From contig NADL03000604.1 in NCBI GenBank assembly GCA_002205965.3, forward strand, positions 1,488,001 through 1,552,000: a DNA stretch of 64,000 bases. The letters run 5' to 3'. The notes under the pieces are model-generated. The model worked only from the letters and a program-made list of their open reading frames with translations. It was not told the DNA's origin and made no database searches. The stretch is from Kappaphycus alvarezii (lineage: Eukaryota; Rhodophyta; Florideophyceae; Gigartinales; Solieriaceae). Positions 14,182 to 53,127 of the stretch are shown piece after piece. Positions within the stretch are counted from its first letter, which is position 1; each line of letters begins with the position of its first letter. The position numbers and the translations under genes were made by a program.

Positions 14182-14255
14182 CTACTGTACGCTCTAGGGT
14201 ATGGTACAGTTGCGATGTACAGTACTGTACACTACACCATACTGCAGAACCGGAC
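14182..14255. repeat. TACTG/TACAG pentamer array (distal, upstream of KH gene)
   Basis: The core at 14217-14232 alternates TACAG and TACTG, putting GTAC every five bases. Related words (actgtac, ggtacag, catactgcag) flank it on both sides. It lies about 1.15 kb upstream of the KH gene start and is the same motif as at 14.81, 22.2-22.9 and 53.07 kb. Confidence 0.75.
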
Positions 14256-14379
14256 CTGAAAAATAATCCTCCAGCGGAAACGAAAACTCTTGTAACTGTT
14301 ACTGAACAGTTCCGCTCCCACTCTCCAAAGGCAAGCAACCAAAACCCAGCCACGCAAACTCAAGATAAGTAAAGAGTAA

Positions 14380-14763
14380 AGATTCTCTCTAACATTTCAA
14401 AGCCCAATCCCACACGCCAACCCACACCAGCCCTTCCCCCCACCCCCAACTCACCCCCGCCATTCCGCCCACCACATACGAATCTCTGCAACCCTCAAAC
14501 CCCACATCGCACTCTACCCCTCCACACGCGGCGGTGTCATCACCTCGACAAACCGGGCGGTAACAACTTCGGGGATCACCAGGCGGGTATACGGTACTCG
14601 ACATGCGTATATTCCTCTCACTGTTGCAGGGGTTAGGGAGGGTGCTTGCGCCGCACACGGGTTGGTGCCATGCGGTGGGGCGTGCATTAGTGTGACAAGT
14701 TTGCGCTCCGGGCGGCGAGATGTGGCTGAGTGTGTTTGCTTGGGCGATGCTAAGCCACCTTGA
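14380..14763 (+). CDS. Possible coding tail, uncharacterised
   Basis: This frame is open for 127 codons without an ATG and ends at TGA 14761-14763. The first part is Pro/His-rich and reads like C-rich filler. The last roughly 85 codons (ALYPSTRGGVITSTNRAVTTS onward) have a balanced composition that could be a real C-terminus. The opposite strand is also open, with a Gly/Trp-rich translation. No family is recognised. It could be an exon, a fragment or chance. Confidence 0.15.
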   Translation, partial: RFSLTFQSPIPHANPHQPFPPPPTHPRHSAHHIRISATLKPHIALYPSTRGGVITSTNRAVTTSGITRRVYGTRHAYIPLTVAGVREGACAAHGLVPCGGACISVTSLRSGRRDVAECVCLGDAKPP

Positions 14764-14813
14764 TTTTGCGGAAGACGGGCCGGAAATGATGGAGCCAAGT
14801 GTTGTATGAAAAG

Positions 14814-14840
14814 GCTATACAGTACAGTACAGTACACTAT
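14814..14840. repeat. TACAG pentamer array (proximal, upstream of KH gene)
   Basis: Four consecutive TACAG/TACAC steps (tatacagtacagtacagtac). The array sits about 560 bp upstream of the KH start codon at 15404. Between them lies C-rich, pyrimidine-biased DNA (15040-15400) that is probably the 5' leader or promoter region. Confidence 0.75.
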
Positions 14841-15403
14841 ATCCTGTGCATTGATTTGAATTCAATTGTACGGGTTGTGTAGCTGCTGTACCGTTCAGCC
14901 TGTGCATTCTTGTGCACACGCTTGACTGCAAAATTCCCACATGCCTTGCTGATGCAAGTGGCCGTCCAAAGGTGCCCCGCAGGTCCTGTAGCCAAGCCAT
15001 ACGACATACGCCAAAGTACCGAAAGCCACAACATCATCCCACTCGTCACGCTGCCCCAATTCCCATTCGCGAATGCCTCCCTCCTAAATTCCAGCCAAAC
15101 CCTTTCCCCGCCGGTCCCCCCTCTCATCATAACCGTCCCAGAAAAAATCACCGCATCCCCACACTCCACCCTCTTTCCAAAGGGCCCACCCGCCGCATCA
15201 TGTCACAACTCACACACACTCAACTCACCCAAATAACCGCCCCCCCGCCCCGACCTCCAACTCCCATAAAACACCCTCCCTCAAAACAGTTCCCTCTCCG
15301 CCATCCCCCCTACCCCTCTCCCCAACTTCAAACCACCCCTCCATTCCCCGCTCTCACCCCGCCTCCACCCCTCCCACCCCTGTCACCCCAAATCCTCTCC
15401 CCA

Positions 15404-18120
15404 ATGGAGTCCATCTCCGCCCACAACACCCCGACCTCTTCCGATCCCACCGCCCGTGCACGTGCCATTGCAAATTCCTTCCGGGAGACCACGCCTCCAA
15501 AGACTACAACTCCCTCCCGTCCTCCCATTTCCGCCACCCCTTCCTCACCGCCTCGTTCCCCCACTACGGCCCCGTTTCGCACCCCTCCCCACCCCCTCGC
15601 TCTCACTCCCGCTTTCGTGCTTCTTCTCATACTCGTTCTCCTGAAAACTCCCATTCCGATTCAATACCGCAAAGACACTCTACTCCCCCTTCCAAGCGCC
15701 GTTCCCCAGATTCCCAGTTTCGAACAGACCCGCCGCGCCGTGTCGCCAGGAGGGTTGACGCCTCCGCGTCTCCGCATTATACAGGCGATCGACCGGGCTC
15801 AGAGAGTTTACCAGAGACTGTCGTTGATGGCGCAGACTCGGCAATTGACGCCGTGCAGTCGGAGCCCCGTCATAGTAGGGCCAATTGTGATATTGATGAT
15901 CCCGATTATCCAAAGTGTCCGCGCCGGGAATACTCGGCTTCGAACCGCCGTGCAAGGATGGACGATCAAACTAGAGACGAGGTTATTGTTCCATCAGAGG
16001 CTGTGGGCTATATTATAGGCAAGCATGGCGAAACGATCAAGGCTATTACAGGGTCTTCTGGTACCATGGTTGCCATGGATAAGTACTTTCCGGGGCCGGA
16101 CCGCAAGTTTGACATCACGGGTTCGCCGGCCGCGGTGGCGCACTGCAGGGAGATGATACTGCGCAAGATTGAGGTGGTCAGAGAACGAAACCATGAAAAT
16201 AGGTCCAGCACCCCGGGCCAGGAGTTTCGCCGAGGGCCTCCAAGAACTCAGTCAAGGTCCAGCGGTCACATGGACGACTCGTATGAGATGTGGATCCCGC
16301 AGCATAAAATTGGCATGATTATCGGTTCCGGCGGCGGCAACATCCGCTCCATCAACGACCGCTCCGGCGCGCTGGCCACCGTCGTCAACGACCGTGTCGA
16401 CGGCGACCGCAAACTCGTGCTCATCCAGGGATCCACATCCGCAATTCAGCACGCAAGGCAACTCATCATGACTTGATTGAAGGACCTCCAGCGGCTGCCT
16501 ATTCCAGACCGCCCCCGCATCGTGAGGAACGGTCTTACCGCGACGTGGCGGACAGGGAAACCTCACCCTTCGAAGATGAGGGCAGCTACGCACCAAAGTC
16601 AGTCTACATTCCGCGCGCTTGCGTCGGGCAGGTGATTGGAAAAAACGGGTCTATGATCCGCCAACTGCAGGCACGAAGTCGCGCCGTAATTCGTGTCAGT
16701 TCTGACGAGGAGAGTGGCGACAGTCCGGACCGCCTTGTGACCATCTCGGGCCCTCCCCGCGTGGTTGAAACGGCGCACACAATGATCATGAAACTCATAG
16801 ACCGCGGCCCTGCGGAAAACGTCGACTCCCACTCCGACCGCCGCGAGTCCGACACCAACGACTCGCGCCAACACTCCGGGACCTACCGTCGCCGTCGCGG
16901 CCCTGTCGAACAGACATTCAGCCTCTCCGCCGAGCACATCGGGCTTCTGATCGGCAAAAACGGGGTCACCGTCAACGACATCCAGAACCGCTCCGGTGCC
17001 ATAGTCGAAGTAACCGGCAAGCACGAATCAGAGCGAGAAAGCTCAACCCGCCGCGTCTCCATTGTCGGCACAAAAGCGCAAGTCAAAATCGCGCGCATTC
17101 TTATCGAAGAGCGTCTAGGACTGGACGACTCCGATACCGAAGTTGCAAACGACGCCGCCAGTCGCCTGGTGCGTATCTCCGAGGTCAGTGACGCGCAAAA
17201 GGAAAACCGTGGAGATAACTCACGTCCATCGCACACAACATCGCCCGACAAACCCGCCGACACCAAATCAAGAGACACGGCGCGCTGTCAAACAGTCCCC
17301 TCAACCAACGCCGCCCAAGACACCCCTGCCGCAACACCGCCCACAAACACAGGGCCCCACAGGCCGCCGCCGCCGCCACCACCACCGCACCACCGCCGCC
17401 ACCTGCCACCACGACAACGCCACCAATGCAGTAACCAACAAACCAACCACGGCAGCACCAACAGCAGCGCCAACAGCAGTTTCAGCAGCGATGGTACCTA
17501 TGGGCGGGGCGGGTGCGGGATTCAAGGCAGGCGCAGGCGGAGCGGGCGGACCTGGGGTAGGCGGTGGATTCGCCGCCTACCCAGGGGCGCCCTTCCTCGG
17601 AGGCCCAGGCGGATTCCCAGGCGGTGCCGCATTCGCACACCCAAGTGGCGGCCCCATGTTTGGCGAAGGCGGCGTGATGCACTACGGACAGTTTGGACAA
17701 GCGCCAGCACATCTAGCCGGAGGAAACTTTGGAGCCATGAATATAGCAGGGGCTGGTGCACAAGGCGAGCAAGCCAAGACGGGAGGTGAAAATAAGGAGG
17801 CGGGCGAAACAGGCGGCGCAGGAAAGGTTGGTGCTGGTCATGGGCACCCGGCTGCGCACGGGTTCTATGGGTATCCCGGACCGCATGGAATGATGTATGC
17901 GGCGCACCCGCCGCATATGTTTGGCGGGTTTGGATTCGGTGCAACACCGCCTGGTGCGCATGCGGCACCTGGTGCGCAGGCGCACTTTGCGGCGGCTTAT
18001 GGTGGGCAAGCGGGTTTTGTGCAGAATGCGGTGAAGGGACAGGAGGGCGAGGCGCGGGAGAAGGTAAAGAGTGAAGAGACGAAAGGAGGTGAAGGTGGCA
18101 AGGTGGAGAAAAACCCCTGA
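15404..18120 (+). CDS. Four-KH-domain RNA/ssDNA-binding protein
   Basis: The product is a predicted sequence-specific RNA or single-stranded DNA binder with four KH domains, an arrangement like FUBP/KSRP or other multi-KH regulators. The N-terminal 180 residues are Ser/Pro/Arg-rich and disordered. KH1 (about 15979-16175, GKHG at 16018), KH2 (16288-16473, GSGG at 16324), KH3 (16602-16803, GKNG at 16638) and KH4 (16917-17118, GKNG at 16953) each keep the GxxG loop. A Pro-rich linker and a Gly/Ala/Pro-rich tail (17480-18120) follow. The start is ATG 15404 (MESISAHNTP); the end is TGA 18118-18120. The frame changes near 15.6 kb, at 16473 and around 17.36-17.44 kb; every change fits a single missing base, giving about 906 residues. 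Short introns are an alternative, but I see no convincing splice pair. It converges on the TPR gene. Nuclear mRNA or transcription regulation is inferred. Confidence 0.85.
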
Positions 18121-19453
18121 GATTTGGACGGGACTGGATGGTATTGAAAATGGCATTACAGACTGCGAATGTAATTCTATTTCTATTTGTTTGTTCAAGT
18201 TCGGCTCTGATCGGTATCAGGGCTCACTTTTATTTCACCAGCTTCTTAAGCGTATAATATTCGGGTTTTTTATGTTTTTTGTTGTATTTGGTGATTTTAT
18301 GAAGTCGCGTGATTTGACATCGACATGAGTTGATTGTCTTTTTATTGGTGTACACGTGTACTAATTTCTTAACTTAACTATTGACTATTTTTTTTTGAAG
18401 GAATCGGTTCAAAAAAATTATACAAATGTGTTTGTTTAAGTTTTCATAATATTTTGATGTTTCTGTACAATTCGTGTAATCCACGAGTGTCTTTGGCGAA
18501 ATATTTTGGGTCTCGAATTGTTTCTACTCCTCCAGTAGATTGGAAACTATCGGCTTTCTTCAAATCGTACCTTGAACTATTCTAGGACAAGTGTTTCAGT
18601 TTGCAGCAATTCTGTTTCACTGTGTAGCATACTGGGCCAGGTCCTCAACATACGACACAACTGACCACTACGATATGTAATATCACTAATATCAACACAT
18701 AGAGGTACGCGGTCTGGAGGCAACATGAAATAGCTACGCAGCACATGTCGTTGATTGCAAACAACCGCCATCGGCTACATGCCTACTACAGCAATTCTCT
18801 CCCAGATTTATCCAAACATGTAGCGGTTTCTAAAGCAAATGCACGTGGTCAAACTTTGGTCTCAATTTATGCCGTCAAGCAAACAACCGCTTCAAGGTTA
18901 AACCGTATATTCCGTGAACCTCCAGCACCGATCGCCGCCCAAAATCTCAGACTCCATGCATGATTTACGTCATCTGCATTTCCCCATTTCTCATCCCTTG
19001 AAATTCTCCGCCTCGATCACATCCATGTAGCAACTTCTCACATTACTTTCCCTCCGCTTTCAATCACATAACCTCCACAATCCCAATTCCAACCATGGCC
19101 CACTTGCCAAACGTCCACCTCGACAACCACCAAATTCGACCGTAACTTAACTTCGCCCGAATGACAATTCCTGGCATAACATTAAACAAGGCGCACAAAA
19201 GGGTAAACAGGGCATGAAACAAGCATACACAGGCTTGACGCTGCCAACTAACACATATGTACAACGCCGCCCTCCCTTGAACCACCAAATCACACATTCC
19301 CGGCACAAAAGAAGGACCGCCACTGCACATACAGGTTAAACAAAACATCGCGAGGGAGACACGACATTTACATCCATTACCGTACTCCGATTAATTCTCC
19401 CTCCAGTTAGCCTCAAGTCGCTCCGACCGCCCCCGCTCCCTCACCCGCCCCCG
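18121..19453. other. Intergenic region between convergent genes
   Basis: It presumably holds the 3' UTRs of the KH gene (+) and the TPR gene (-). It is AT-rich just after 18120 and more balanced from 18.9 kb. Open frames are under 95 codons and show no domain. I see no array or repeat in it. Confidence 0.5.
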
Positions 19454-21614
19454 CTAGTACAAATGCCGCGTGTACATCCGAGAACTACTATCTCGTCCGG
19501 CCTGGCACTCCCACGCCGCAAACCCTCTTCCCGGCAATCCACGTTCCTCTCTCTGCTGTCTCGCCCTTGCAAACAGCTCCCCCGCCTCTTCATGTTTCTC
19601 CAACTTCATCTTTGCTTTTCCAATCGCCTCGTCGAGAAAGATGTCCAGGTGCGTGCAATGCTGTAACGGCGCCTGTCCCCATCCCTCCTGTTGCATCCAA
19701 TCCTGAATCAACCTCTGCCCCGACGCAAAGTATGCCAGCGCCTCGGAGTATTCTCTCCGCCGCATATGCACGCTGCCTAGCGTTCCCAATGCATCCGCGT
19801 AAATCGGCATATCCTTGAACCCGAGGTCTGTGAGTAGCGTCAACGCACGGCGGACAGAATGCATCCCGCCGTCGTGTCTCCTTTTGCTATTGAAATCGAT
19901 GCAAGGTTCAGAGTGATGCACACTTGAAACGTCGACCGTTCGAATCTCCCCTCATCCAGTGTTTTCAAAGCTTGCACCAGCAATTTTTTCGCCTCTTCAA
20001 ACTCGCGTTGACTTATGCGAAGCTCTGCCAACAGCAAAAGCGCCAATACAGAAAACGACAATGGGAATGCAGTGTTCCTGTTGTCTGCCATCATGGCGAC
20101 GGCCTTTCGTAGCGTGAACTCAGCCTTTTCGAACAAAAACACGTCAAAGTATGCCTCTCCCATCGCCAGCAATATCCGCGCCTCCGCCACGGGAGTGCAC
20201 AGCTGTTGGTGGGGAGAAGCCCTTATTTCCCTCACCACCGGCCGATAAATTTCGAGCCTCTGCTTTGCGGGGACTGAATATCGCATCACCGTCGCGCCGT
20301 TTGCCAGAAATGTCGTTAGCAGATGCATATCCCGCATGTCACGGCACATATGAAGCGCGACATCCACATTTTGTCTTTCTACGTCATACGCCCTCATTGC
20401 GCTTAGCCGCTCTTGCGCACCGCAGTATAGAGACGTCATTTCCAGTTGCTGAAGCTTCTCGGAGTAATGCAGCACAAACCTCTGTCGGGCAGCAGAGGCA
20501 CCGTCGCAGGATTCATTTGAAACTAAACTCTTAGTTATATCATTCAGTTCGAACCTTGCCGACGGTAGTTTGCGTATAAAGTTGACATCCACAAGCGGTT
20601 GCAATGTTTCCGCATTACGTGCCATCTCCGCATGCGGTTCGACTCCCATGACCTTCAAGGCGGCATTAGCATCGAATGAGCTAACGAACAAAATCAGGTG
20701 CTTGAGGCCCTCCATGACACCTCTGGGAAGCGCTGCAAGCCTATGATCCAAATCCTGCCTCAAGAAGCGCCGAACGCCCGCACTTCTCGGTTCCTCGGCG
20801 ACTGAGTTTGTGCGCTCATTACCTCCAACAGTGAGAATATCAGCGAGTAGTTGGGCCTCATCGTTGTCGTCAAATCCAAGGCTTTCCTGCTTTCCCGACG
20901 CGGCAGACGGCCTACCTGCAACTGCAGACAGAAAGGGGCCAGCACCGGAATTTGATCCCCGGATTTGAGCGCCCGAAACCGGAGGATGAAGGATAGCACC
21001 TTCAACACGGGGCACTGAACCTCGTGACGCAGGATATTTCTTAGAATCCGGGGCCGATTCCAGTGTTTTCTCGATGGTAGCAAGGATTTCCTCCGTGGAC
21101 ATTGAGGGCGTATCGGCGACGGTAGAAAACACGGAATTTGTCTGGGATGCAGGATTGGTTTGGTAAGCGGGGTGGTGGAGTGGTCGGGGAGATAGGAAAT
21201 TGGACGAAAGGCGGATTCAGCGGTTGTCAATAGCGGACGCGTGGGGTGCGAAGCGAGCGGCGGGAGCGAGATGCGTAATGAGGGCGCCGACTTGGAACTG
21301 ATTGATAAGGGGGCGGTTAAGGGTAGATTGGGGGGCCGCACCGCAGGATGTGCAATGGGTGGGGCTTGGGATGTCGGTTGACATGCGCTGTGCGGCGGCG
21401 GGCGGCCGGCTTGTTTGGCGAGCTCCTTGAGCTGCTTCTTTCGGTGATAGGAGCGGTTCTGACGCATGCGTCTCTTGATGACGGATCCTTTGAGGCGACG
21501 CTCGTTTTCGGATAATTCCGAGTCTGGTTTTGAAAAAATGTAGGTGGGTGGGCGACCTGGGCGGCGCTTGACTGGTTCCTGGTCGGGTCTCTCTTCATCT
21601 TGCTTTTCGCTCAT
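19454..21614 (-). CDS. STAND-like TPR protein with basic, AT-hook-like N-terminus
   Basis: A product of about 720 residues. The first 70 residues carry an AT-hook-like RRPGRPP and a long basic stretch (KRRMRQNRSYHRKK) resembling a bZIP basic region, then a Ser/Pro linker. From about 20750 down to 20300 the sequence matches the helical region that follows the NTPase in NB-ARC/STAND proteins (RFELNDITKSLV; later YDVERQNVDVALHM). About five TPR-like helical hairpins follow to the end. No P-loop or NB-ARC kinase motif is visible, so it is probably not an ATPase. The start at 21614 (MSEKQDEERP) is preferred to an upstream ATG at 21962, whose extension looks non-coding. The stop is TAG 19454-19456. 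Frame changes near 21172 (CCCC run) and 19865 each fit one lost base. It may be a chromatin- or DNA-associated scaffold; function unknown. A pentamer array lies 0.6-1.2 kb upstream. Confidence 0.7.
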
Positions 21615-22194
21615 TTCATTCCTGCCGCGCTGGTGCAAAGTCTTGAAACATACAACGGTCTTCTCGTGACAATTTGTGATGGCGTACATAAGCCAACTTT
21701 TTGACTTTGGTGTGATGGGGGACGAGAAGGAGTCGTCTCTAATAACTTGTTGTTTCGAGACATGGTCAAAGCAATTAAGATGGGGCGAGGAACGTGGGAG
21801 ATAGTTATTTGGCACCGTGCGGTTCTGACAATTTCTACCCCATCGGAAGTTGTCTGACGGATCTCTTTGGCTTGAATCGTTGGTTTGATCCATACATCCC
21901 CAGCAAGCACTGTGCCGTACAGTAGAAGGCATGAGACGCGAAAGGAGGATAATTTCTACCAAGCAGAGTAGAATTGGAATTTTATCTATTCCCCGATAAT
22001 CGTTTATTCGTTTTATTTTAATATGCTACTTGGTATGTATGTATCAGTGTGAAATTCAACATATATTTTAGATATCTGTGCTTGCGTGTCTGCTTTTTAT
22101 TTAAACCTGAATGAAATTTTCAAGTAAAACAAAACACAATCCACGACGTTTTCAAAATATTCATTCTGAAGCTTACAGTAAGTCCAACAATATA

Positions 22195-22856
22195 TTACTA
22201 TACTATACAGTACTGTCCTATACCAGGGGGGAGGTGGTGACCTTTTATATATTGCGGGGGCTAGCTTCCGACATCCAATCAAAAACTTTTCTTAATTCAC
22301 TCGAGGGCACTGTCAGAGCAATCATGTACAGTACTGTACAGTACAGTATAGTGCCGTATTGTACAGAGGCTTTGGCAGGACTGTACAATGCTGTACAGTA
22401 TAAGATTTTCATGCTCACCCAGTTTTGCCATGTACAGTACTGTATTGTGCTCCAGGTGATGGAGTAAAAAAGGTGTCTATGTACCGCGCTCTTGTGCCCT
22501 ACATGTACTGTACAGTACTGTACTGTACGCTAAGCAAATCACTTTTGCTCATACTGCAGTACACTGTACGCGTCTACCGTCCTTGCTGCCACAGTACAGT
22601 GCAGCATGGTCTTACAGTAGCATTCTTCGGTTGCGGTGTAGTGTAGTAGTGTACTGTACTGTACAGTACTGCACAGCCAATGTTTTACGTATGATAAGGA
22701 AAACGGTTTTCCTCAGCAACGACAAGCTGCCGCCTTTCCTCAATTACCTTCGAAACGCAATCAAATGCAACGGATTGTTATCCGTTTGTTAAGGCTTCCT
22801 TGACGACATTCCCGGCAACGATATAATGCACTGTACTGTACAGTACAGTACAGTAA
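22195..22856. repeat. Major cluster of TACTG/TACAG palindromic arrays
   Basis: At least eight blocks of alternating TACTG and TACAG (22198, 22323, 22378, 22432, 22504, 22555, 22590, 22650, 22829) are separated by 30-150 bases of unrelated sequence. Each block puts GTAC at 5-bp steps and is self-complementary, so hairpins are possible. It lies upstream of the TPR gene start (21614, minus strand). The frames open here only because the repeat itself lacks stops. Confidence 0.85.
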
Positions 22857-22859
22857 TAA

Positions 22860-23499
22860 TCATCAACCTCACACACTTTTTCGCGTGCCCCCACGTAAGG
22901 TTAGCCATTGGTACGATTGTGTGTTTATGCAACGATAATCTCGCAGATTAACTCGTTACCAATAAAAGGTCCTCTTGAAACGATAGGCAACTCACGCAAC
23001 AACCGACGCTCCACTCTGTGAGTCAAAATGGCATTGCTTTACCAAAATCTAAGCTTCACTACCTTAGGTACAGCTCCTCTCGTTGTGCGTACCTGGGTAC
23101 TGTTCGTCAATCCCAATTCAAACTGACTTGAAATCCTACAACTTTGTTCCCCATGCCTCGTTGGAATACAAACATGAAATGACCGGAAATGAATCCCAGA
23201 TGAATTCCAGAGCACCCGCAAAACAAAAGTTCCACTCACCCAAAGCCCACATACTGTATTAATAAATGTGTACTAAAACAACTTTGCCTGCTGAAATCTC
23301 CCAGACATTTCGCAAACCTTATCATCCGTTAAGGTGACGGTGTGGAAACCGCTTCGGTAGCCGACGGGACCATGGTCCAAAATGGAAACATACACTAACT
23401 GAGTCTCGACATAACTTTGGCTCACTTTCAAGAGTGCAGCGCGTTGCATTGCCTACATTTTCTTCTCGCTTTATTGAAAGGCGAATGCAACCCAACGTT
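22860..23499. other. Intergenic, nothing assignable
   Basis: Mixed composition with frames below 80 codons and no recognisable repeat. The region could be part of the same unit as the open frame at 23500-23718. Confidence 0.35.
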
Positions 23500-23718
23500 T
23501 CAAATGGCCTCGAGCAGACCACTTGCACACGGTGAGAGCTCTTGGTACGTGGTACGGCCACTTGAGCCTCCCGATCTACAGATATGTGCCAGCTTCACGA
23601 GTCGGCAGACATCACCGTTGAAAACAACCTCAGTGCCATTCTCGAGCGTAAATCCTTTAGGATCTGCCGCAACAGTTGCGGTGTCGTTTTTTTTTGTTGC
23701 AACTGGAATAAGCCTATA
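23500..23718 (-). pseudogene. Orphan coding-like segment, family not recognised
   Basis: A minus-strand frame open for about 71 codons, with no usable start, ends at a stop at 23500-23502. The translation is well balanced (GFTLENGTEVVFNGDVCRLV, then KLAHICRSGG, then YQELSPCASGLLEAI) and looks like real protein rather than chance. The plus strand here is also open for 140 codons but gives a biased, hydrophobic product. I do not recognise the family. A fragment of a mobile-element protein is the likeliest source given the surroundings. Confidence 0.25.
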
Positions 23719-23839
23719 TCAATTTGTACCTTATTTTGAAGCAGGTGTCAAAATAAAGGGAATATCATTACAAAAATTTCCGCCTTTCAGAAAAGCAATG
23801 CAGTTTACATACAGTACAGGGTATGTATCTCAACAATAA

Positions 23840-24971
23840 AGCTCAACTGCAAACAGAAATTTCTACCGACGGAAGCATCCACCACGCTCTGGATCTTCCC
23901 TCCCGATTTCTGCCATGTAAGTCATCCTTTAGTGGACCGAATTTCCCCCATAGGTCCACATTTCCTTGAAACATTTTCATGCACTGTCACATCTTGCTCA
24001 CCACCTGAATACCTTACATAATTCCTTGTGTCATAATTTTCTTGCATTTCTGATGCAGCACTCTTGCCCATCTTGACATTCCATACCTGTTCCGCTAATA
24101 CTCCACGACAATTCTAGTCACGACTAAAACGCGACCGCAGCTGTTTATCTTCAAGGGCGTCTATCGGACCCCCTTTTGCGATCCTTTTCTGATTATCTTG
24201 CGTGTTTAGATCCACTGTCTCCCGACCCCTCTGTCGCCTGCGTCTGGTACACAAAAGTATCGCTTGTTATCAACTTGCAATCCTGCACTTACTCCACGTA
24301 CATGTCCTCGCTTGTTATTTGCCAGCCTTCCATGAAAGTTTCATGCACAAATTCAGTCCTCAACCCTCAAACATGCATCAGATTTTTTTCACCATCTCGA
24401 AACTCTGCTATATACCGAATCCTCGTGCTTGGGAAGAATGCAGGTTGCAATTGATAGACTTGGTATAGATACCTCCAGTGTAATCATGATGCAGAGTGGG
24501 TATTAGAATTGCAACAAGTGCCTGCAATAAGATCAGGTACCAGCATGGAAATGCAAAAGGTACGCAAAGAAAACACACTCATTCCCAACAAAGCATCACA
24601 CACAGGACCGCAGCGAAGCTCGCTCACTTTTTGTATCCACAATTTTGCGGAAGGTTTTCCGCAGGAACCTTCCATGGAACTGCTGCAAGGTACCACTAGC
24701 TCGTACGTGACTATCCCTTTCAGAACCGTTTAGTTATGTTATGTAAGCTGATCTGCTACCCTAGTAGCGTTATCTTCCGTTGACGCGTGGAAAGACTGTG
24801 AAACAACACGCTGCGAACCCATTCAGTTCAAAATCCTGACTCAAAGGCAACAGACCGGTGGGTCGCTATCAGGAGATTCTATTTCCATTGCGTTTATGTC
24901 GCTTACCATTTGCTGTGCCATTGTAAATTTTCTTGCATACCCCTATGATCCAAATTAGCACCAACAGACAA
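23840..24971. other. Intergenic, nothing assignable
   Basis: Both strands have frames of 60-92 codons around 24.2-24.7 kb with no domain and conflicting overlaps. Composition is balanced. Confidence 0.35.
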
Positions 24972-25011
24972 CAGGCCCAATTAAATCTTTAAATAAACGT
25001 CCCAGTTCCCC
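24972..25011. repeat. Copy A of a 40-bp dispersed repeat
   Basis: It shares 26 consecutive identical bases (from CAGGCCCAATTAAATC) with 53020-53045, and most of the next 14 bases. The other copy abuts the pentamer array upstream of RRP4. This one has no array after it. Confidence 0.75.
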
Positions 25012-42640: not shown

Positions 42641-43026
42641 CAAATATGAGAAATGTCGTGAGACAAAATTCTTGAACACGTGGCAACCTGTAAGTCGTAT
42701 TGCTGAGGTTCTAAAGTTGTGCGTGACGAAACATGCAGAATTGTGCGTCGATAGAGAAGTGCCGTGAGAAAATCGGTGCACACAAAACGCGGGAACAGCT
42801 GAAGCCGAACGCTTCCTTCGTCTCAGTCACTAATGCCGAGGCATGTCAGATCCTACGCCTGCTCGCAGTTTACGGCCAACGCCATACTCTAGCCAAACTC
42901 CCCTTCCCCCTATCCCTAGCTCCATACCTCTGCGCAATCCCTCATCCCTTTCATAATCACAGCAAGCTGTCTTCGAGACGAGTACTACCGACGTTCATGC
43001 AGCACACAAGCTCGGCCGCCGGTAAC

Positions 43027-43835
43027 GTTTCTCAAGCCAAGAAGACCTCGTTATCATCCGGGAAGTCGCCGCAGCGAAAGCACACATAGCGCCGAAAGGC
43101 GAAATAAGAGAGCGCTTTAAAATTGCTACGGCTAAGGCCAATGCGACTGAGAGGCTAAGCGATGCCGTCACATGGAAGTCCATAACGGACAGGTACAAGC
43201 GACTGCAAGAGCGTTTTGACCGCTATTATAGGATGGAGACTTGAATGACTGGGGTTGGTGGGGAGGTAGGGGAGGCCGAGGAGCTCCTGAGCATAATGCG
43301 AGATGATCATGGAAATTTTGAGGAGAGGAGAGGCGCAAAACGGCAGAAAAAAGTGGACGAAGAGGAGCGGAAGGAGCGACTGGGAGCCGAAATTAGAAGC
43401 CATGTGACACAACAACGTACTGCAAGCAGTGAAGATGAAGTCTTCCAGCTTCTGGATGATGATGATAACGTGCAGGACACCAGTGTTGGAAGCAAACCGG
43501 GGAGTGCACGGACGAAGTGGAAGCCGGGACAGATTGGGACGATTGAGAATGAGACTGCTAGGTTCACTGCGACCCTGGAGGGAGGTGATGCCAGACGTAA
43601 TGAAATCGAAGCGCAGCGTCTGGCGTTGGACCGCGACAGGTTTGAAGAGGAAAAGATGGAGCGCGAGCGCGCTCGTACTGAACGACGACAGAAGCGAGAA
43701 TCAGCTCAGAAGACTGAACTCGAGAAGTTCAGGATCATGATGGAATTTTTTCAGCAGGCGACAGGGCGCAATACTAGCAATGGTGGGCGCGGGGGTCAGC
43801 CCCCAATGGATTCCAGCTCCAAGGAGACGCTCTAA
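43027..43835 (+). pseudogene. Harbinger accessory SANT/coiled-coil protein, copy 2
   Basis: A Myb/SANT-like domain reads RFSSQEDLVIIREVAAAK, then TWKSITDRYKRLQERF (43027-43230). An in-frame TGA follows at 43242-43244, then SGVG-type TGVGGEVGEAEELL, a highly charged middle (EERKERLGAEIR) and a long coiled-coil (43620-43740) ending KFRIMMEFFQQ. Without the TGA the frame is continuous for about 268 codons. The TGA may be a CGA-to-TGA change, or the ATG right after it may start a separate shorter protein. It converges on transposase copy 2 with a gap of only a few bases. Confidence 0.65.
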
Positions 43836-45134
43836 GTCCTCCGCTCGCTGCAGACTTTGCGCTCGCTGCTTGCTGCGGACTTTGTGCTCGCCGCTCGCTG
43901 TAATCGATTCAGGATGACGCCCGCGCCGGGATTTTTCTCAACTAGCCCATCTGAGTGAAGGTAACCTTTTAGAGTGGGCGGACTACACCAGAAGTACTTA
44001 GAGATCTGACTGCCGTAAAAGCAAGTCCTGAAGTTGGCCAGCAGCATCGTAGCTAGATACATAGTTCCTACGGGGGATTATAATATGCACAGCTTGCGGT
44101 AAAATTCCATTGTTTTCTAATAGATTTTGAGCTCTTTGAAGAAACACTCGACTGTTATCCGCCCTCTTGACATCGCGAGATTAAACGCTCGTTGGTCCGC
44201 GCTAAGCGCACATCCCTGGAATGGCACTTGAAGGTACACGTGCTGATTATACCCGCTGTCTCCGTACAAACAATACTGTTTGTTGCTCAAGTTAAGGCAC
44301 TCTTCAAGCTGCTGGTCCAATCCGGAGCGAGAATATAGCGTCCAGTCATGCCTCTTCCCTTTATACGGGTCTCTTCTACGGGTCCATATCCGTGCAATAG
44401 CAGCCCATCTGGGCGCACAAAGGCTGGAACTTCAGCGCATAGAACCTTTTGTGACAATCATACACAACTTGTTGTAGAACCTCCTGACTTGGTCGCGCGA
44501 TCCGTATCATTCGTCCCGCCAATAAAACCAATGCAGTTATCGAGCCCGTGAGTCTTGCGATTGACTGCCTCAGCGTAAAATTCAGCGCGTTGCGCAACAA
44601 ACGGTGCATGTAACGGCGACTTCACAAGATGCTGATACTCGTCCACAAACGCATCCATTGTTTCCCAGAAGATTTCCGATAGTTGAGAGGCATACTTTCT
44701 GAACATCTTTTCGCGATCTGTCCACCTGTATGGCGACGCGAGTCTGCTGAGCAGTACAAAAGTTGCTAGAAGTGGTCCGCAAGTGTACCGGTTCAGTGCT
44801 GTGAGATATAATTCTGCTTTCGTGCATATGATCGGCGCTAAAGTCTGTATATCCGCTATTTGAAAGCGAAAGTGCGACAGACATTCCTGCTCGGAGAGGT
44901 TACGAAGATCTCGATAAACTTACTAGCATAAATACTGCTGTTGCGTCGCAGAAACGTGAAGTAGTTCCCGTGATGATGGTAGAACCGCTGAAAATCTATC
45001 GCGAGGAAATCGGATGGGACATGCGTCCAGCGGCTTCTGCGTTGAATCAGGAAGAGAAGAATTGAGCGCCAGTTCTTTACAACCCGAATGGCAGTAGTCA
45101 TCGTAAGGTTGTATAGGGTCACTTTTGCCACCAT
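43832..45134 (-). pseudogene. PIF/Harbinger transposase, copy 2 (inactive)
   Basis: Begins MVAKVTLYNL at 45134 and runs about 430 codons to 43832. The N-terminal part has the conserved DFQRFYHHH and FLRRNSS stretch. A helical region (ASPYRWTDREKMFRKYASQ) leads to the catalytic core. The first catalytic Asp is lost (CIGFIGGT, where copy 1 has FIDET). The second is kept (YCLYGDSGYN) and the last box is TVECFFKELK. The frame changes near 44880, 44500 and twice near 44400. It lies in opposite orientation to copy 1. The two copies have lesions at different catalytic positions and differ in sequence, so they are not a recent duplication. Confidence 0.8.
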
Positions 45135-45215
45135 TATGAGTGCTGTACTACCGGGAGGAAGAGAGTGGCTAGGAGGGCTAGGATTATAATACTCCCGCAA
45201 ATGAGTTTTATACAT

Positions 45216-46380
45216 TGCGTAACCTCAATTCTGAAGTTGCCTTAAGAGAATTCTTTACACCGAAATCAACATCGCATTTACTGAAGCATTTCTGAAACTT
45301 GCCAGAATTCTTTCAGTGCGTAAAATCTGTACTGTATCAATATTCTGTACTACAAAATCTGGTTAAAATTAACGCTAAATAGTATTTGAAAGTACCGCCA
45401 ACCCGAAAAGGCGGTAATACTACAGTAGTGATATAAACTGTGTCAATTGCACCAAAATAATCAAATACTAACTAACTGTAGCCCACATCCCTGAATTTTT
45501 CTACGGCGTCACTTCTTTCGATCTTCCCTTTCCAGCTATCCAGCCCCTGCAGAAAACCCCTCCTCGAATTTCTCCTCGATTGACCAAATCTTCCCCTGCC
45601 GTCAAAAAGCTGCGCTCCTTTTTCCAGCAGGGGGAAAAATTACCGGTAGCGAATCATCGTCAACTGTGAAGCAAATGGACTCTCTCTTTGCCCATTTCAA
45701 GCAGGTAGCCTGAAGGCGATGCTTTCGTGAATTGAAGTCTGAAATGGGACTGAAAGGAGGTAAGTGAAGAAAATTCTTTATTCGGATTTATCGTTCACTG
45801 TACTAAAATTAACTGCAGTTTCTGATGCACGATCGAATTTGCTACAAGTTATGGGTACTATGGACACAGCGGGAGATGAAAACTCAGAAGAAGGTGGAGA
45901 TGACTTCACTTTTTTGAAGTCAATGCGAATAAGCATATCTGGAAAAGTTAAGTCTACCGTTTCATTCAAGCTGCCGTTCAAAGTCTAATACTTCATCGAA
46001 GATAGGCATTTTGAGGCTGACGCGACATGGAAACGCGTGTGTTGTACTTTGATCTTCGCGCTATCGAGGATCAGTCTTACGAAAAAGGGCTTGGAAGCGA
46101 GGGTGTTTTACTAGGGTAGGTATGAATGCGTCCGCTCGTATTTGAATTTGTATTGCTTGTTTTTGCTTAATGATTACCAGTGATTATTTTTGTATTAATG
46201 TTGTTGTAGCAACCGCTAAACGTTTAGAACTTGGAAGCCACCCTGCGTACTTATGATTGTAAAGCTACTTCGGTGTGCGGAGCGCGCGAAGGAACTGAAT
46301 AACTGTGATCTAAAATCTTGAATTGTACTAACCCATATCATTTTTTAGTTGTGGGCCAAGTGCCCGAAACCGACTTGCCC
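45216..46380. other. Boundary between Harbinger and copia remnants
   Basis: It contains a few TACTG words (45325-45356), an ACCGCC...GGCGGT inverted repeat near 45398 and, from 45480, sequence that may be the start of the following element (leader or gag N-terminus). I could not define an LTR. Confidence 0.35.
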
Positions 46381-46383
46381 ATA

Positions 46384-47450
46384 AGGCCCAAATTCACTTG
46401 GGACCATAAATTTCCTCCGCGTATTGACGGAAAGGGAGATCAAGAAGAACATCGTGACGCAGTTAAGCTTTGAAAGCAATTCCACAATTTGCTGCCTGAA
46501 TCGAATAGTAATAAGATTCCTGAAGCACTCCAAGCTGTCATTTTGGAGTCACAACTGTATGATCGGGCTAAGGACCTATGCTCTGACATCTGGCATGATT
46601 AACTTACTGTCGATGGAGCAGTAGAAACAGTAGTTGGTAAGATTTACCAGAAGGACGCTCTGTATATCACGAGTGAAGCATATCGCTCGTATTAGCACTA
46701 TAGAATACGAAACGTGGAAATAAGGAAAGCATGAAGAACTTTTAATCTAGATTTTCTGCTGAAGTGGCTAAGTTTAATTCTATTTCCAACGAAACAAAAC
46801 TACCGGAATGTATTACAGCTTTAATGCTGTTGTCAACCTCGAACTTTGATGACTCGCAGCGTGTATCAGTTTTGGCTGCCGCATCACCGTCAGGTGATAA
46901 TTTGACTCCGCAGTCGTTGAATGATAAATTTTTGAAAGCAGTCACTTACCAGTCTGTCGCTTCTATTATCAAGCATTGCGACAAATCTTTGAATCAAGCA
47001 GCTGGCAAAGCTCCGCTAAATGCTAGCGCAGCCGGAACTAGTCGATATCGCGGCCCGACCATGGCAATGGAAGAGGATTCGATAATCGGTCTCCTCCAAC
47101 TAGCAAGTTTCCGTGCAATAAGGGTGGAAAGCATGGGCACTGGAAAGATAACCACAGCGCTGATGGATCTTTGACATCGCATGTACCGTCGTATGACACA
47201 CAGGAGGAGGCTCTTGAAAATCAGAAGTCATACCATATTCGATCCGGTAACAAAGGGTCATCCTCAATAGGCCACAAGAGCGGCGTACATGGAAAGCAAA
47301 GGGCTGTTCCATTCAAGAGAGCTACCTTGACCAGATTCTCAGCTAAGTGCCAGAACGCTGATGTAGAACGTGGACCTCTCGTCGACAGCGGAGCATCATA
47401 TGCTGCTATCGGACAGGTGGAACTTAATTTGCTTTCTGAAGATATGTGAC
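46384..47450 (+). pseudogene. Copia-type gag and protease (decayed)
   Basis: Gag-like sequence starts PKFTWDHKFPP at 46384 and continues through LPESNSNKIPEAL, ESQLYDRAKDLC and a second part at 46764 (KFNSISNETKLPE). Stops include TGA at 46471, where a Trp is expected. A zinc-knuckle-like stretch (CNKGGKHGHW, about 47115) has its first Cys replaced by Ser. The protease motif VDSGASYAAIG lies near 47385, followed by a stop at 47447. The order gag - knuckle - protease - integrase is that of Ty1/copia. Confidence 0.6.
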
Positions 47451-47763
47451 TTAGTACGAATGCCAAGCTTGATGATATTCCTCTTTACTACGAATAATTC
47501 TAGGATTCATTGTGATAACGGCACTGTCTGACGGAGGAATTCCCGTCCGCATTGCCCACGTTGTAATTGAAAGCTCTTGACAATAGGTAATTGGCCGCCA
47601 TGTCACTCGGAAGGCCAATATTGAGAATATTGATAAGAACACACTGGTATTTCTATCTGGTAATGAAAGGAAGGATATATCGCTTGTCGATCATGAATTT
47701 CTCTGTTACATTCCTCTAGATCTCTTTGGATTCCAAAGCACCAACTGATCAATCTTTTCATGT

Positions 47764-48792
47764 ATGTCCACAGTTACGCTTGTCAACTCAAAGTGGAAGG
47801 ACGTCAAGAGTGTTATCGACAAAGTGCACAAGCACGTGTGCGGGCATGCAAGCCACAATGATCTCAAGATGCTGCTAGAACGCAATAGGCTATGGAACGA
47901 AGCTATCGCTTCCTATGTCAGAAACCTAATCGAAGGCTGCAGTGCTTGTAGAGCTACTTATTTTTTGCAGCCAAATCGCAAAGTATCTATAAGCTCTCTG
48001 TCGAATAATTTTAACGAAGTTGTATGCATAGATCATCTCTTTCTTGAAGATAACTGTCTATTGCACTGTATGGACCTCGTAAAGAGGTACTCAGCTGCAC
48101 TTTTTGTGGAAACTACTGTATTGAAAGAAGCTATTATTGGATTTGAAGCTTTTTGGATCTCTCAATTTTGGTACCTAGATGCAATTCGTGCTGACCTTGC
48201 TTTTCACAAAGGTGAGTCCAAGGCCAATTCTGATAGGCTTGGTATTCCGCTTCAACGCGTACCAACTCGCCGACATTCGAAGGATGCCATTGACTCTAAA
48301 CACAACATTATTCACAGCATATTTATTCGCCTCAAGGAAGCAGCAGGGTCTGAGTTTGATCCTGCTCTGGCATCGTACCAAGCCGTGACCATTTCGAATG
48401 ACTTGTATGGAAATGATACCGTATCTTCGTTTGAATTGGAGAAAGGATTTACACATCCAATTACTTCCAAGCCGTTGGATCTTACAGTTCCTCATGATTT
48501 ACGCCAAGCTGGTGATGAGCTTCAAGCACGGAGGAAATTGGCTTTAATTCTAAAGTCAAAAGATGTACCTGAAGTTCCTTTTTCCGTATGTAGTATAGTG
48601 GAGATCTATCAGAAGCATGACAATGAGAAGAGGGGTAAGTGGTATGAAGCCAAAACCATTAGGTCTCTTGACAAGCATGCTCGTGTTATAAAAGTTCCTG
48701 GAAAGAATGGTGGCTGAATTACTGTAGCTTTTGAAGACTCTCGTGCCCTCTACGAAAAGAAAGCTTTTCTGAACTTGTACAAGATGGACTAG
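47764..48792 (+). pseudogene. Copia-type integrase (decayed)
   Basis: The HHCC zinc region (HKHVCGHASHNDLKMLLERNR with CSAC after it, about 47830-47955) precedes the core. Core residues visible are Asp in CIDHLFLED (about 48030) and Asp in IRADLAF (about 48190). The position where a Glu is expected before SKH is Asp (DAIDSKHNII, about 48295). TGA at 48715-48717 breaks the frame after GKNGG; the same frame then continues to about 48780, where a one-base loss moves it to the next part. Inactive as it stands. Confidence 0.6.
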
Positions 48793-49445
48793 ATTCCCTA
48801 TATGAAATCGTGAATGAATACCTCGATGGCACCAACCAATCCTCAGAGCAATCATCAGTTACTAGTCCAGATGCTGAGCTGCAATCGGAAGAAACTGATG
48901 ATATCTATGCCGACTTTCCCGAACCAGTTGAGACTGCAGAATCTAATGTCACTGATTTCTGCTCCGATACCAATCATGTACCGAATGTGGGCGATAGTAT
49001 TGAAGTCTATTGGCCCCTTGACGAAAAGTTCTATAGTGGAACCGTCCATTCGGAAGAAGGCGATGGAGGTATGAACATCCACTACGATGACGGTGATAAG
49101 GGTTGCCTTGATATGAGTAAGGAGACTTGGAACTTTATTGAAGCAATACCTGCCAGCTCCAGCACAATGTATCCTGAACAATTGGAAGTCACCAGCACTG
49201 AGAGTACAGTTCTCTCTGCAATGCTCGAGCACTTTGGAAATAATGAATTTCTTAGGCATCATGCTCAAGGCTTTGAGCAGTACCCGCTTGTGAATGCACA
49301 CAATGCAGAGGAAGAAACGTTCTTGAAAACTGCACGTCCAGTTGCGCATCTTAAAATTACTCCAGGTTCGAAGTTCATCAACAGTCACGCGCTTTATAAT
49401 ATTAAGCAAAACGATGACCGGTCACTGAAGCTGAAGCTCGTATAG
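48774..49445 (+). pseudogene. Tudor-like domain segment of copia polyprotein
   Basis: An open frame of over 200 codons links integrase and reverse transcriptase. After an acidic spacer it has VGDSIEVYWPLDEKFYSG, then IHYDDGDKGCLDMSKETW (48984-49142). This is the pattern of Tudor/Agenet-type folds (VGxxVxVxWPxDxxFYxGxV ... YxDGDxExLxLxxExW) known from chromatin readers such as PDS5-like and PTM proteins. The segment ends with TPGSKFINSHALYNIKQND, the start of the RT region. A role in targeting insertion to modified chromatin is inference by analogy with chromodomain-bearing gypsy elements. Confidence 0.65.
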
Positions 49446-50220
49446 CACCATATGGAAATGAAGACGACCCGAGAAATTTTTTAAGTAAGGACTGTACGAT
49501 ATGTCCACCAACAGGACTTAGGATACTAGAATCTATTTCGCGTCGCTTCAAGGGACAATCTACAAAGATGATGTAAAGGCTGCTTTCTTCAAACTGGTGA
49601 AGCGCAACAAGATGTATATGTTCGACCACCAAAGGAAAGTTCTATGAAGCCCTCGCATCTTTGGCTATTGTTGACCGAAGCCTACGGTCTGGTCAGTGCC
49701 AACGCAAAATGGCAGAACCAATCAGACCAGCTTAATGGAAATTGGAATGACACAGTCAGCTCATGTACCGCAACTGTTCTTTATGAAGGAAGATATTAGG
49801 TTGGTAGTTTTGGTGGAAAAGATAGTTGATCATCGGGGAAAATGATCGAGCTGAATCATTCGTCGAAAAGTTTGGCAAACGCTTCAAATTTGGGGACGTA
49901 AATCATGGTCCTGGAAAACTTCGATACTTGGGAATTAACAGGATTCAGAATGGTGACTAAACGATCAAAACTGATGCCGACAAAAAAGTAGAAGCTGTAA
50001 CGGAATATCCATTCTCAAGACAGCGTCGCAAGCAATTTGAACGGCCATTGAACCAATGAAAAAATCTGTTTTCGCATCGACGAATAGCTCTCTTGGCTGG
50101 ATTGAAACAGCTGCATCACCTTTTTGCTAGTTTTATTCAATTTCCCTCCAGCAGAAAGCACTTGAGCTGAATGTCTGTCATCTCGTTGAACAGATCAACA
50201 ATGCGGAAGCTAAAAGAGCT
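49430..50220 (+). pseudogene. Copia-type reverse transcriptase (decayed)
   Basis: RT begins with EARIAPYGNEDDPR and CPPTGLRILESI and reaches motif A (KDDVKAAFFKL, about 49570), with frame changes near 49433 and 49560 that each fit one lost base. Further on, LRYLGIN (about 49925) and TIKTDADKKVEAV (about 49965) are later RT/connection motifs. Stops are frequent after 49645 and no catalytic YxDD is intact. No RNase H and no 3' LTR could be recognised before the AT-rich block. Confidence 0.5.
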
Positions 50221-52411
50221 TAGTACTACATTTGCTGATCTTTATTTTTTATCGGTTTATTAGATCTTTACGTCCATAATTTCGTCTTTACGTAGCATCG
50301 ACCAAGCAGCAACAGAGATGGTGAGGGGTTTTTTATCCTTTAATAAAGGTCTTGTTTTCTTTCGCAAACTTCCATATTCAAAATTTTACTGAGAGCTATC
50401 TTTTGTTTACTGATATATCAACAGAGAGTGTGGACAGGATGGGTCATAGGGGCAAGAAAATAATTCAGGTTGACAAGGTCACTTATTCAATGTAATTGAA
50501 ATTAATGACTTGGTAAATCATTTATCCCGGACAGCAGTGGACTTTACCTAATTTTTCCATGCTTTCTGCTTGTTCAGTGCGTTTCCTGATTTTTTGACCT
50601 TAATGGACAACGTAGTGATCATATTTTGTTCCGCCGTCATGAGTTATAACCCCAGGAAAAATAATCTTTCAGATTCTTAATTGGACTATTAAACGATAAC
50701 TGTAGTCCAGTAGCTGGTTTTGACATATTCCAGTAAGTTGGTTTTAATATAATCCAGTAAGTTGGTTTTAACAGAATTTACAGAAATCAGTAGTACACTG
50801 AGGCCTTTATTGGTCAAATCAGACCCAATAGAAAGCTGTTCGAATAATCATAGGAGATAAGTATGTACTTCTGTTTACATATGCCTCTGCGTCCTCAGTT
50901 CCCAAAAACGTTCAAAATCGTTTTTTCTTCGCCTTAAACCCGATTTTTTTGGAAAAATTAACGTATTCATCTCTAATTATCTTGTTGGTACAATAAATGC
51001 TCCTTAATATGCGATACGTCTCTGTTATTCATTATAACCGTTTCAATTCGCTTGTGCTTCGAAGATCTCCTTCCGAATTTTATGAAGGATAATTCCTAGT
51101 CTATTTACTGACTTCCTTTCAACTGAAGACCTTCACTGCACCAGATTACATATTGATCTTGTTCCTTTTTTATTTTTCGGAAGATGCTCCTAACGATAGA
51201 ATGATTCATTATGCCGCAAATCAAGAATTTACGGTGCATTGAGATTTCCCAATCCCGAATTGCGCGACAGATGCAAAGCGATTTTTCTCCCAAAGTATGG
51301 TCACTGACACCTCCTTCTTCATATCCGTAAATACCCAATTCTTGACTGAAGCCGTGACACTCTTTCACTTACTCATGTCGGTGAATGAAACTTCAATTTC
51401 AATGGACCGACGATCGCGATAAAATGGGCACAGCACAAGTTTCTATGGTAAAAATCTGAGTGCCTTTTTCAGTGAGCATTACACCGTTTCATGTTGAGTA
51501 TTGGTTTCTGTCCATCAAACAGAGTTGTTTCCGGATTCAAAAGTGTGAATAAGGATCTATAAATGGCTTCATAATAATATTTTTAGCCTGGTACTGGAAT
51601 ACCTGGGGAATATTTTAGAACCAGATACGTTCCTGATAATTATTTTCGTTGCACTTCTGCGATTTTAACAATCATTTAGCCCATATTAAAGCTTTACACC
51701 CATAGTTAAGGTTAAATACACCCGACGACCTGTAACCACAAGTATGGAACAAAATGCGAAAAAAGGCAACCGAAGCTAAAAGCAGAGAACAGTTATCCCA
51801 TATTTATGATCGGTGAGACAGAGAACAGTATAGTCGGGAACAGTAGAATAGAGAGCATCAGGAAGGATAAAGATCGAACTTTAGGTACAACTGTACTGCG
51901 GTAGCAGACGATTGATCATTCTGGAGGTGTGAGTAGCGAATCAAGACACCTTGGTTAGATACCAAAAAATATAGATCTCAGAATGTGCCTAGGACAGAAG
52001 TACCATAAGCTGGAAAATGGGGGAAATTGGGGTGATTTAATGATTGGAAAATAGGTTAGCCTATGTTCCAAAGCGCATCAAATAATTGGTACAAAGTGGT
52101 CGGCATGGTGGAACTAGGAAACGGAATTAATACGGTTCGAACTCGCTAGAGGCTGGCTCGAGCCCAGAGAAGTGCAGAGTATTACCCACATGGAACGATA
52201 CATACAGTATGTATCTTCAAATAGTCGCCTAAAATTTAGCACCTAGCTTAGGTGCATCTTGTTAAACCATTGTATACGATCTTTGCATAATAAGTCTGGA
52301 ATTGTTTCCAATACAAATTTATTTCACAAAATCAGTGTGCATGCCCATAGAAAAACGATGTCTGCTTTCCATGGTCTTGACACTTTCGCCTAGTATTTAT
52401 TTAAATCACTT
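50221..52411. other. AT-rich stretch
   Basis: Nothing assignable except a small tandem repeat at 50706-50776. It may hold the eroded 3' end of the copia-Tudor element. Confidence 0.4.
50706..50776. repeat. Three tandem 23-24 bp units
   Basis: Units start at 50706, 50729 and 50753, with core TCCAGTAAGTTGGTTTTAA. The first unit is the most diverged. No coding capacity. Confidence 0.8.
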
Positions 52412-52851
52412 TACGAGGCAGCCCGTCACCCGGCCATCGAGCAGCGACAGGGGCTTCACCGCCCAAGGCCGGATATCCAGATAATGGGTAGCAACGGAGG
52501 AACGGACTTTTTCGACGTCAAGTTCGTCAATCCTCTTGCGCTCTCCAATAGGAGAGTGCGTACTTTCAACCCACTCACCTCCCTCAACGCAGCCATCTCC
52601 GCCAAACGTAGAAGGTATGAACCACTGCTCGCGACGGCTGCTAGAGGAAGGCTTGTGCCTACTCCAATATCCACCCTTGGAGGCGGGCACCCAGACGCGT
52701 ACGAGGTGCTAACCAGTGTCGCGCGGAACGTGGCCGTTCGAGCGATGGAGACCTATGGAAGGTTAGAGCGGTGCTTACCCAAAGGCACGCTGCCGCGGCC
52801 GTCATGTCCAACGCGGCATGCCTGCTCGCTGGCATTGAGCCGGCCCTGTAG
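52412..52851 (+). pseudogene. Retroelement RLE domain and C-terminus, best-kept copy
   Basis: An open frame from 52412 reads AARHPAIEQRQGLHRPRPDI, then GGTDFFDVKFVNPL: RPD and D-V-K in the spacing of a PD-(D/E)XK nuclease. Next come RVRTFNPLTSLNAA, a basic helix (KRRRYEPLLA), GRLVPTPISTLGGGH and VARNVAVRAMET. Near 52775 the frame must move by one lost base to give QRHAAAAVMSNAACLLAGIE and TAG 52849-52851; the uncorrected frame runs on to 52870. No RT or zinc knuckle precedes it, so this is a 5'-truncated copy. The family match to 11.3, 27.8 and 29.8 kb is clear; nuclease activity is inferred. Confidence 0.65.
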
Positions 52852-53019
52852 GAAAGGTCATGTAAAGTAGTTTTACCCATCAATGACGACTTATGCCGAA
52901 TAACGCATTAGCGGCGTGGATATAACCGACCACATCTTCCACGCATTAGAATAACCCAAAAATTCCCCCTTTGCTAGAGTAGGCATTGGTGAAGCCCTTG
53001 CCGGGTTGTGTCTGTTTAG

Positions 53020-53060
53020 CAGGCCCAATTAAATCTTTAAATAAAGGTCCCAGTGCCCCT
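53020..53060. repeat. Copy B of a 40-bp dispersed repeat
   Basis: Matches 24972-25011 over 26 identical bases and then loosely. It directly precedes the pentamer array upstream of RRP4. Confidence 0.75.
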
Positions 53061-53066
53061 CCGTAA

Positions 53067-53127
53067 TACTGTACTGTACTGCACTGCAGGTTCTGTACTG
53101 TACGTACTGTACTGTTGGTACTGTACG
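53067..53127. repeat. TACTG pentamer array upstream of RRP4
   Basis: Blocks of TACTG repeats (tactgtactgtactgcactgcag, then ctgtactgtacgtactgtactg) end about 285 bp before the RRP4 start codon. It is the same motif as upstream of the KH and TPR genes. Confidence 0.8.

Follow-up and report, generated by a model that had tools for sequence, protein, structure and literature searches.

A 64,000-nucleotide stretch of the genome of the red alga Kappaphycus alvarezii (contig NADL03000604.1, positions 1,488,001 to 1,552,000 of the forward strand; below, the window) contains a KH-domain open reading frame (ORF), a TPR-like ORF and an RRP4 exosome ORF, together with dense arrays of the pentamers TACTG and TACAG (Table 1). 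An initial annotation had taken these arrays for a mix of two complementary pentamers. They are a single lattice seen from opposite strands, with the unit (GTACW)n and the elementary word TACWGTA, W being A or T. The word was counted 57 times in the window, whereas 100 order-1 Markov simulations averaged 4.8; there were also 10 overlapping (TACWG)x3 matches where the simulations gave 0, which shows that the arrays at the named places are real. Runs of at least three units lie at 14818-14832, 22327-22346, 22506-22525, 22652-22671, 22834-22853 and 53067-53081. Five runs of two units were also found, one of them (23810) outside the places first named. The array reported at 14.18-14.26 kb is present and weak, consisting of two units and single words. 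The rest of the window had been said to hold stray words only; single words are scattered across it and are likewise over-represented.

Table 1. Positions of arrays, repeat pieces and ORFs, numbered from the first letter of the window.
Feature	Position	Strand	Remarks
TACTGTA at 14183 and 2-unit array TACAGTACTGTA at 14218	14183..14229		
3-unit array (TACAG)3TA	14818..14834		
KH-domain ORF, downstream of first arrays	16653..17789	+	PF00013 1.5e-22
TPR-like ORF	19840..21102	-	weak TPR matches, under Pfam cut-offs
Cluster of arrays and single words	22174..22855		arrays 22327-22348 (4 units), 22506-22527 (4), 22652-22668 (3), 22834-22855 (4); other members 22174, 22206, 22394-22400, 22433-22444, 22613
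Single TACAGTA	22394..22400		plain TA in homologous contig C586 (GTGTA-----TAAG)
Dispersed repeat piece	52966..53059		many listed copies stop near array start
Array/cluster	53067..53125		sites 53067, 53072, 53096, 53105, 53119
Second dispersed repeat piece, past array	53167..53287		
RRP4 exosome ORF	53648..54301	+	PF21266 4.5e-33

Among the three host genes that had been named, KH and RRP4 were confirmed by their Pfam matches, and the TPR assignment stayed below the cut-offs. The 53-kb array is located 0.5 kb from the RRP4 start codon, within the interval of 0.3-1.2 kb originally given for all three genes. The first arrays are 0.37 kb from an unassigned ORF at 15200 or 1.8 kb from the KH ORF, and the 22-kb arrays are 1.1-1.75 kb from the TPR ORF start, the distances varying with the gene model chosen.

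The elementary word in the genome

The lattice pattern TACWGTACWGTACWG was found 19,099 times on the forward and 19,225 times on the reverse strand of the genome (336,021,096 bases, 884 contigs), compared with 1 and 3 times for a reversed-pattern control, showing that the arrays are not special to the three genes. Extrapolation gives roughly 11,000 arrays of at least three units. In 217,867 bases, in which all 16 four-base palindromes were tested, GTAC formed 24 triples at 5-bp spacing and each other palindrome formed 0. The arrays are also clustered: in the first 1.02 Mb of contig C1, where 100 listed forward places correspond to 58 arrays, 17 of the 57 gaps are shorter than 1 kb, against 3.1 expected. 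The literature searched on Kappaphycus and red algae yielded nothing on such arrays.

Word statistics were taken from 275,524 bases, with 12 allelic or overlapping loci left out and, ahead of one separate count, 5 overlapping loci dropped. Loci L080/L081 were omitted from the table of TA-NNN-TA words and from the array-size spectrum, the copia loci L005, L007 and L014 from part of that table and from the whole spectrum, and the viral loci L047-L079 from every count; the 33 stretches of a lattice 20-mer in viral contigs were taken as sparse background. TACWGTA occurs 223 times, the next W-centred palindrome of such form 136 times, and it remains the most over-represented 7-mer once lattice runs are masked (142 vs 41.6). 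Both of its forms rank first among the 64 TA-NNN-TA words, with 130 and 93 occurrences against 48 for the next. When the copia loci are excluded, TACTGTA (112) and TACAGTA (81) remain on top, followed by a word with 45. Of its 20 one-mismatch neighbours, 15 occur at 0.68-1.38 times the expected count and five at 1.5-1.8 times, namely TACCGTA (33 vs 17.9), TACGGTA (33 vs 17.9), TAGAGTA (37 vs 21.0), TACAATA (57 vs 35.5) and TACAGTG (46 vs 30.0). Around isolated words the flanking bases are nearly uninformative, except for a G at -1. TACWGTA, which begins and ends with TA, thus behaves as an almost all-or-none word and lacks the gradation of a protein-binding motif. Array sizes, from single words through doubles onward, number 121, 8, 5, 7, 0, 1 and 1.

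The identity of W is close to random along the arrays. Adjacent units have the same W in 14 cases and a different W in 17 cases in the sampled loci, and the same W in 92 of 158 cases on C1. A and T spacers are mixed in 40 of the 58 C1 arrays, and isolated words are enriched. This is not the picture of an ordinary microsatellite, that is, one pure unit extended by slippage, and on this point the initial annotation was right.

The location of the sites upstream of genes was examined at RRM genes, where 30 loci were merged into 18 distinct genes, with one locus per gene picked by the author, and 1.5 kb before the RRM domain was compared with 1.5 kb after it. There are 40 sites before and 7 after the domain (sign-flip p 0.021), compared with 220 and 195 for 63 control words. 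By gene, the counts are 9 vs 3 with 6 ties (sign test p 0.073), and the 3' side is probably richer in coding DNA, which weakens the contrast. These data, in which distances are taken from the RRM domain rather than from mapped transcription starts, are suggestive of upstream enrichment and lend modest support to the upstream placement first proposed. Site density is 1.48/kb before RRM domains and lower in random loci (0.78/kb, or 0.58/kb without locus L016), yet arrays are present there too, in DNA rich in transposable elements (TEs). Considering also that the fixed bases of the word diverge like their flanks (see below) and that the motif is hardly graded, the data do not support the suggestion that the arrays are dedicated to promoter, origin or boundary function. 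The likeness to SBP-domain binding sites was not borne out either. Such sites have a GTAC core, as the arrays do, but a genome search for the SBP domain PF03110, in which introns were disregarded, gave 3 matches at E <= 1 with none above cut-off, the best of them (E 0.032) having stops inside.

Tc1/mariner elements in the lattice

The genome is rich in Tc1/mariner transposases: among 1153 first-look DDE_3 candidates, 150 were scored and all 150 were above cut-off. One recent family of about 1.5 kb has the terminal inverted repeat (TIR) TACACTGGTGACTGATGCC, and the ends of two nearly identical copies (on C609 and C55) were read. The outer part of the TIR is repeated further in, as in IR/DR (inverted repeat/direct repeat) elements. 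The two copies read ...TTTACTG-TA-element-TA-CTGTACTGTACGG and ...CTATTG-TA-element-TA-CTGTACAGTAGCGG, and each sits at a TA of the TACWG lattice. The TIR has 33 exact copies genome-wide, 22 of which form 11 pairs about 1.5-1.65 kb apart. CWG is found directly outside 16 of the 33 ends (8 CAG, 8 CTG) and is missing from 17, against 1.57 expected from the 4.75% of TA sides that have it in random loci (p 4e-13); the full TACWG is found outside 14 ends. Four of the 11 complete pairs (on C515, C587, C609 and C622) have CWG on both sides, where the base rate is 0.54% (p 3e-7). Landing of this family in the arrays is therefore well supported. At the C55 insertion site, three near-full-length homologs (72-75%) are 24-26 bp longer, and at the C609 site one partial homolog (query 1-210, 82%) is 9 bp shorter, both judged from match lengths only. 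On C1, 361 bp separate the end of a DDE_3 match (114319-114669) from an array at 115030; in the TACACTGGTGACTGATGCC family, domain and TIR end are 364 bp apart. This is a single case.

The assembly contains diverged homologous copies of several loci (C586 vs C600 and other contig pairs), as if both haplotypes or subgenomes had been retained. In BLAST alignments, identity between contig pairs is about 94-98% over the RRM loci and 75-85% at array regions. The comparison covered nine homologous pairs, of which six contain sites. Substitutions were counted at 21 of 216 fixed positions of the word, 8 of 41 W positions (6 of them A<->T), 174 of 1289 flanking positions and 872 of 21,225 positions farther away. 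For all changes taken together, the fixed bases and the flank do not differ significantly (p 0.15), indicative of no significant overall conservation. When only A/T columns are considered, A<->T swaps occur at 6 of 41 W positions, 0 of 137 fixed positions and 29 of 779 flanking positions, with an excess at W over the flank (p 0.006) and a deficit at fixed positions (p 0.015); W is thus where these swaps gather. The related stretches yielded a list of 19 five-base insertions; three of them, each between the window and C586, are TACWG in some rotation. One of these, at 22394 in the window, is a clean single-site pair, TGTACAGTATAAG vs TGTATAAG, in which TACAGTA is replaced by TA, a 5-bp difference; the gap position rests on BLAST, and MAFFT sets the gap elsewhere.

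Excision scars as a possible origin of the arrays

The consensus excision footprints given for the transposon Sleeping Beauty are TACAGTA and TACTGTA (PMC4378557, PMC3432063), and for Sleeping Beauty and mariner the cut is described as falling 3 nt inside the element, with the overhangs as footprints and TA as the target (PMC7827188). The word of the arrays shares with this footprint its identical 7 bp, its A/T ambiguity and its TA flanks and, under the proposal made below, its TA target and 3-nt overhang mechanism. It differs in that the scars there are single and those here are stacked head to tail, and in that a CWG-ended donor was not found here. We propose that TACWGTA represents stacked Tc1/mariner excision footprints that double as preferred landing sites, a reading to which we give a probability of roughly one half (0.52).

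According to this proposal, a transposon would insert at TA, duplicating it, and excision with a 3-nt stagger would leave the terminal trinucleotide between both TAs. For CAG/CTG ends, the overhangs are predicted to pair except at the centre, where an A:A or T:T mismatch remains, the pairing of two CAG overhangs with this single mismatch being presumed from the published features, and repair either way would produce TA-C(A/T)G-TA. Every cycle of insertion and excision would thereby add exactly TACWG plus a new TA. Given a transposase preference for CWG-flanked TAs, the scar would beat the original site as a target, and return visits would grow arrays with random W, gathered in hotspots, plausibly in open chromatin upstream of genes. 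In human cells, ZB, a Tc1 element from zebrafish, is stated to prefer enhancers and active transcription start sites (PMC7913693), and upstream placement would follow from insertion of the same kind. If excision did write the words, the CWG scars may come from a different family or from one now extinct; alternatively, an element sitting in an array may be excised at the TA one step farther out, with CWG becoming its end. A simulation of 150 events without target preference gave 182.5 singles and 1.2 doubles, and one with weights 5 and 200 (preference for CWG-TA-CWG) gave 137, 7.2, 4.5 and 2.5 plus a tail, near the observed spectrum.

Several observations weigh against this origin. In the TACACTGGTGACTGATGCC family, the only one with ends read, the TA is followed inward by CAC instead of CWG, and for this family the footprint rule predicts CAC/GTG scars; the scar TACACGTGTA was found 9 times in the sampled loci, 7 of them in copia loci and 2 elsewhere. 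A CWG-ended donor family was not found in these loci. Inverted repeats anchored on CWG gave 15 matches in the sample, all copia-locus palindromes or lattice pieces (control anchors 2, 10 and 5), and a general search for TA-flanked TIRs gave 27 matches, none a convincing CWG family. In locus L016, a Tc1-like transposase ORF (DDE_3, with HTH_Tnp_Tc3_2 matched weakly) lies between two long inverted repeats, at about 529-762 and 3240-3451, which each span some 230 bp and are 73% alike; this element was rejected as the owner of CWG ends, its sites at 1064 and 3345 not being at the inverted-repeat ends. The clean TA/TACWGTA allele pair is the only one and lies in an array-rich place, the two other 5-bp differences of TACWG type are within or next to arrays, where slippage could account for them, and such differences are absent from all pairs except window/C586. 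Scars do not directly predict the W-swap pattern, which would fit a palindrome under constraint. Some of the 33 TIR ends may represent one insertion present as alleles, in which case the CWG excess would be smaller but would persist. The simulation weights were hand-picked, five sets having been tried. Tandem units in copia loci, of 12 bp (TACTGTACTTCG) and 24 bp (GACAGTACACGTATGCCACATAGG), contain the word or part of it, which suits enhancer repeats. Pure arrays on C1 are also in excess (18 of 58, against 10.8 expected), and slippage therefore contributes to the arrays; the mixing of W is beyond its reach.

This last excess also fits an explanation that we consider unlikely, in which the pentamer repeats existed beforehand, are kept by slippage and serve as a target hotspot for Tc1/mariner elements that did not write them. 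Target preference alone would suffice for the CWG outside 16 of the 33 ends, the CAC termini would need no explanation, and unit-sized length differences are indeed found between alleles inside arrays. However, slippage does not mix A and T at one position, as in 40 of the 58 arrays, and both the rank of the isolated word as top masked 7-mer and the clean TA/TACAGTA pair would be left unexplained. A further explanation would have the TAC-W-GTA palindromes be clustered promoter sites for a dimeric DNA-binding protein, co-opted by copia elements, with transposons landing in open promoters. The excess before RRM domains, the LTR-like stretches of copia (LTR, long terminal repeat) with repeated TACTGTACTTCG and CAGTACACGTA units, and the free A<->T swapping at W with 0 of 137 swaps at fixed A/T columns are in line with it, and yet it appears improbable: most one-mismatch words are near expectation, the fixed bases show no significant overall conservation, 7-bp sites overlapping every 5 bp could presumably not all be bound together, transposon ends lie exactly in lattice register, and no SBP domain passed the cut-off.

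There is very little to recommend copying of the arrays around the genome inside larger TEs such as LTR elements or other dispersed repeats. Clusters do lie in the three copia loci, and the 53.07-kb array lies between dispersed repeat pieces, but TACWGTA stays first among TA-NNN-TA words when those loci are excluded, and the 22.15-22.9 kb cluster has a single full-length homolog (C586:854270-854926, 75%) and otherwise ten short matches of the lattice, in a search that ignores very common words. A copia origin of this cluster was rejected on that count.

A more specific form of the scar proposal, held tentatively and at less than even odds, is that the arrays are self-reinforcing landing pads, in which Tc1/mariner scars out-compete virgin TAs as targets and gain one 5-bp unit per insertion. 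If so, the length of an array would count the past jumps at its site, thousands of such counters would exist genome-wide, crowded in gene-upstream DNA, and the arrays would shape where transposons live without hitting genes. The scar origin, if true, would mean that past jumps can be counted at thousands of sites, that short tandem repeats can arise by a new route, and that their gathering near genes has a simple cause. It also cautions that enriched palindromic promoter words need not be transcription-factor sites. The single scar is already known, and over 300,000 such words are stated for the mouse genome (PMC4378557 or PMC3432063); stacking into the genome's most over-represented 7-mer, and reuse, would be new. 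No published account of the stacking, scale and reuse of Tc1/mariner footprints was found in the literature searched. Microsatellite-associated MITEs of pineapple (PMC8449440) are similar, to judge by the title, in joining small DNA transposons with short tandem repeats, and differ in that the repeat unit here equals the excision scar.

Other repeats and genes near the arrays

In the copia elements (RVT_2) of L005, L007 and L014, the clusters lie beside the polymerase ORF in LTR-like stretches that are presumably LTRs. Those at L007:2900-3000, L014:700-790 and L005:4130-4390 have tandem units. The two repeat pieces that enclose the 53.07-kb array correspond to query 67-160 and 268-388 of a search in which 40 candidates were scored of 3202 at first look. 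With the joined C609 flanks as query, copies of another dispersed repeat (query 186-283) start a few bases from the array at the C609 insertion, as at 53067 in the window, and arrays thus adjoin the ends of other repeats too.

An Argonaute gene at L009:5823-8767 consists of two overlapping open frames, with PAZ and Piwi above cut-off and ArgoN just below; a site lies 0.3 kb before the open frame, and a CAP-domain frame is nearby on the other strand. A tandem gene array is made up of at least 30 RRM matches of equal score, mostly about 4.2-4.3 kb apart, with 19 on C539:478129-588889 (in two halves on opposite strands), 6 on C352:1677-23135 and 5 on C148:173292-204583.

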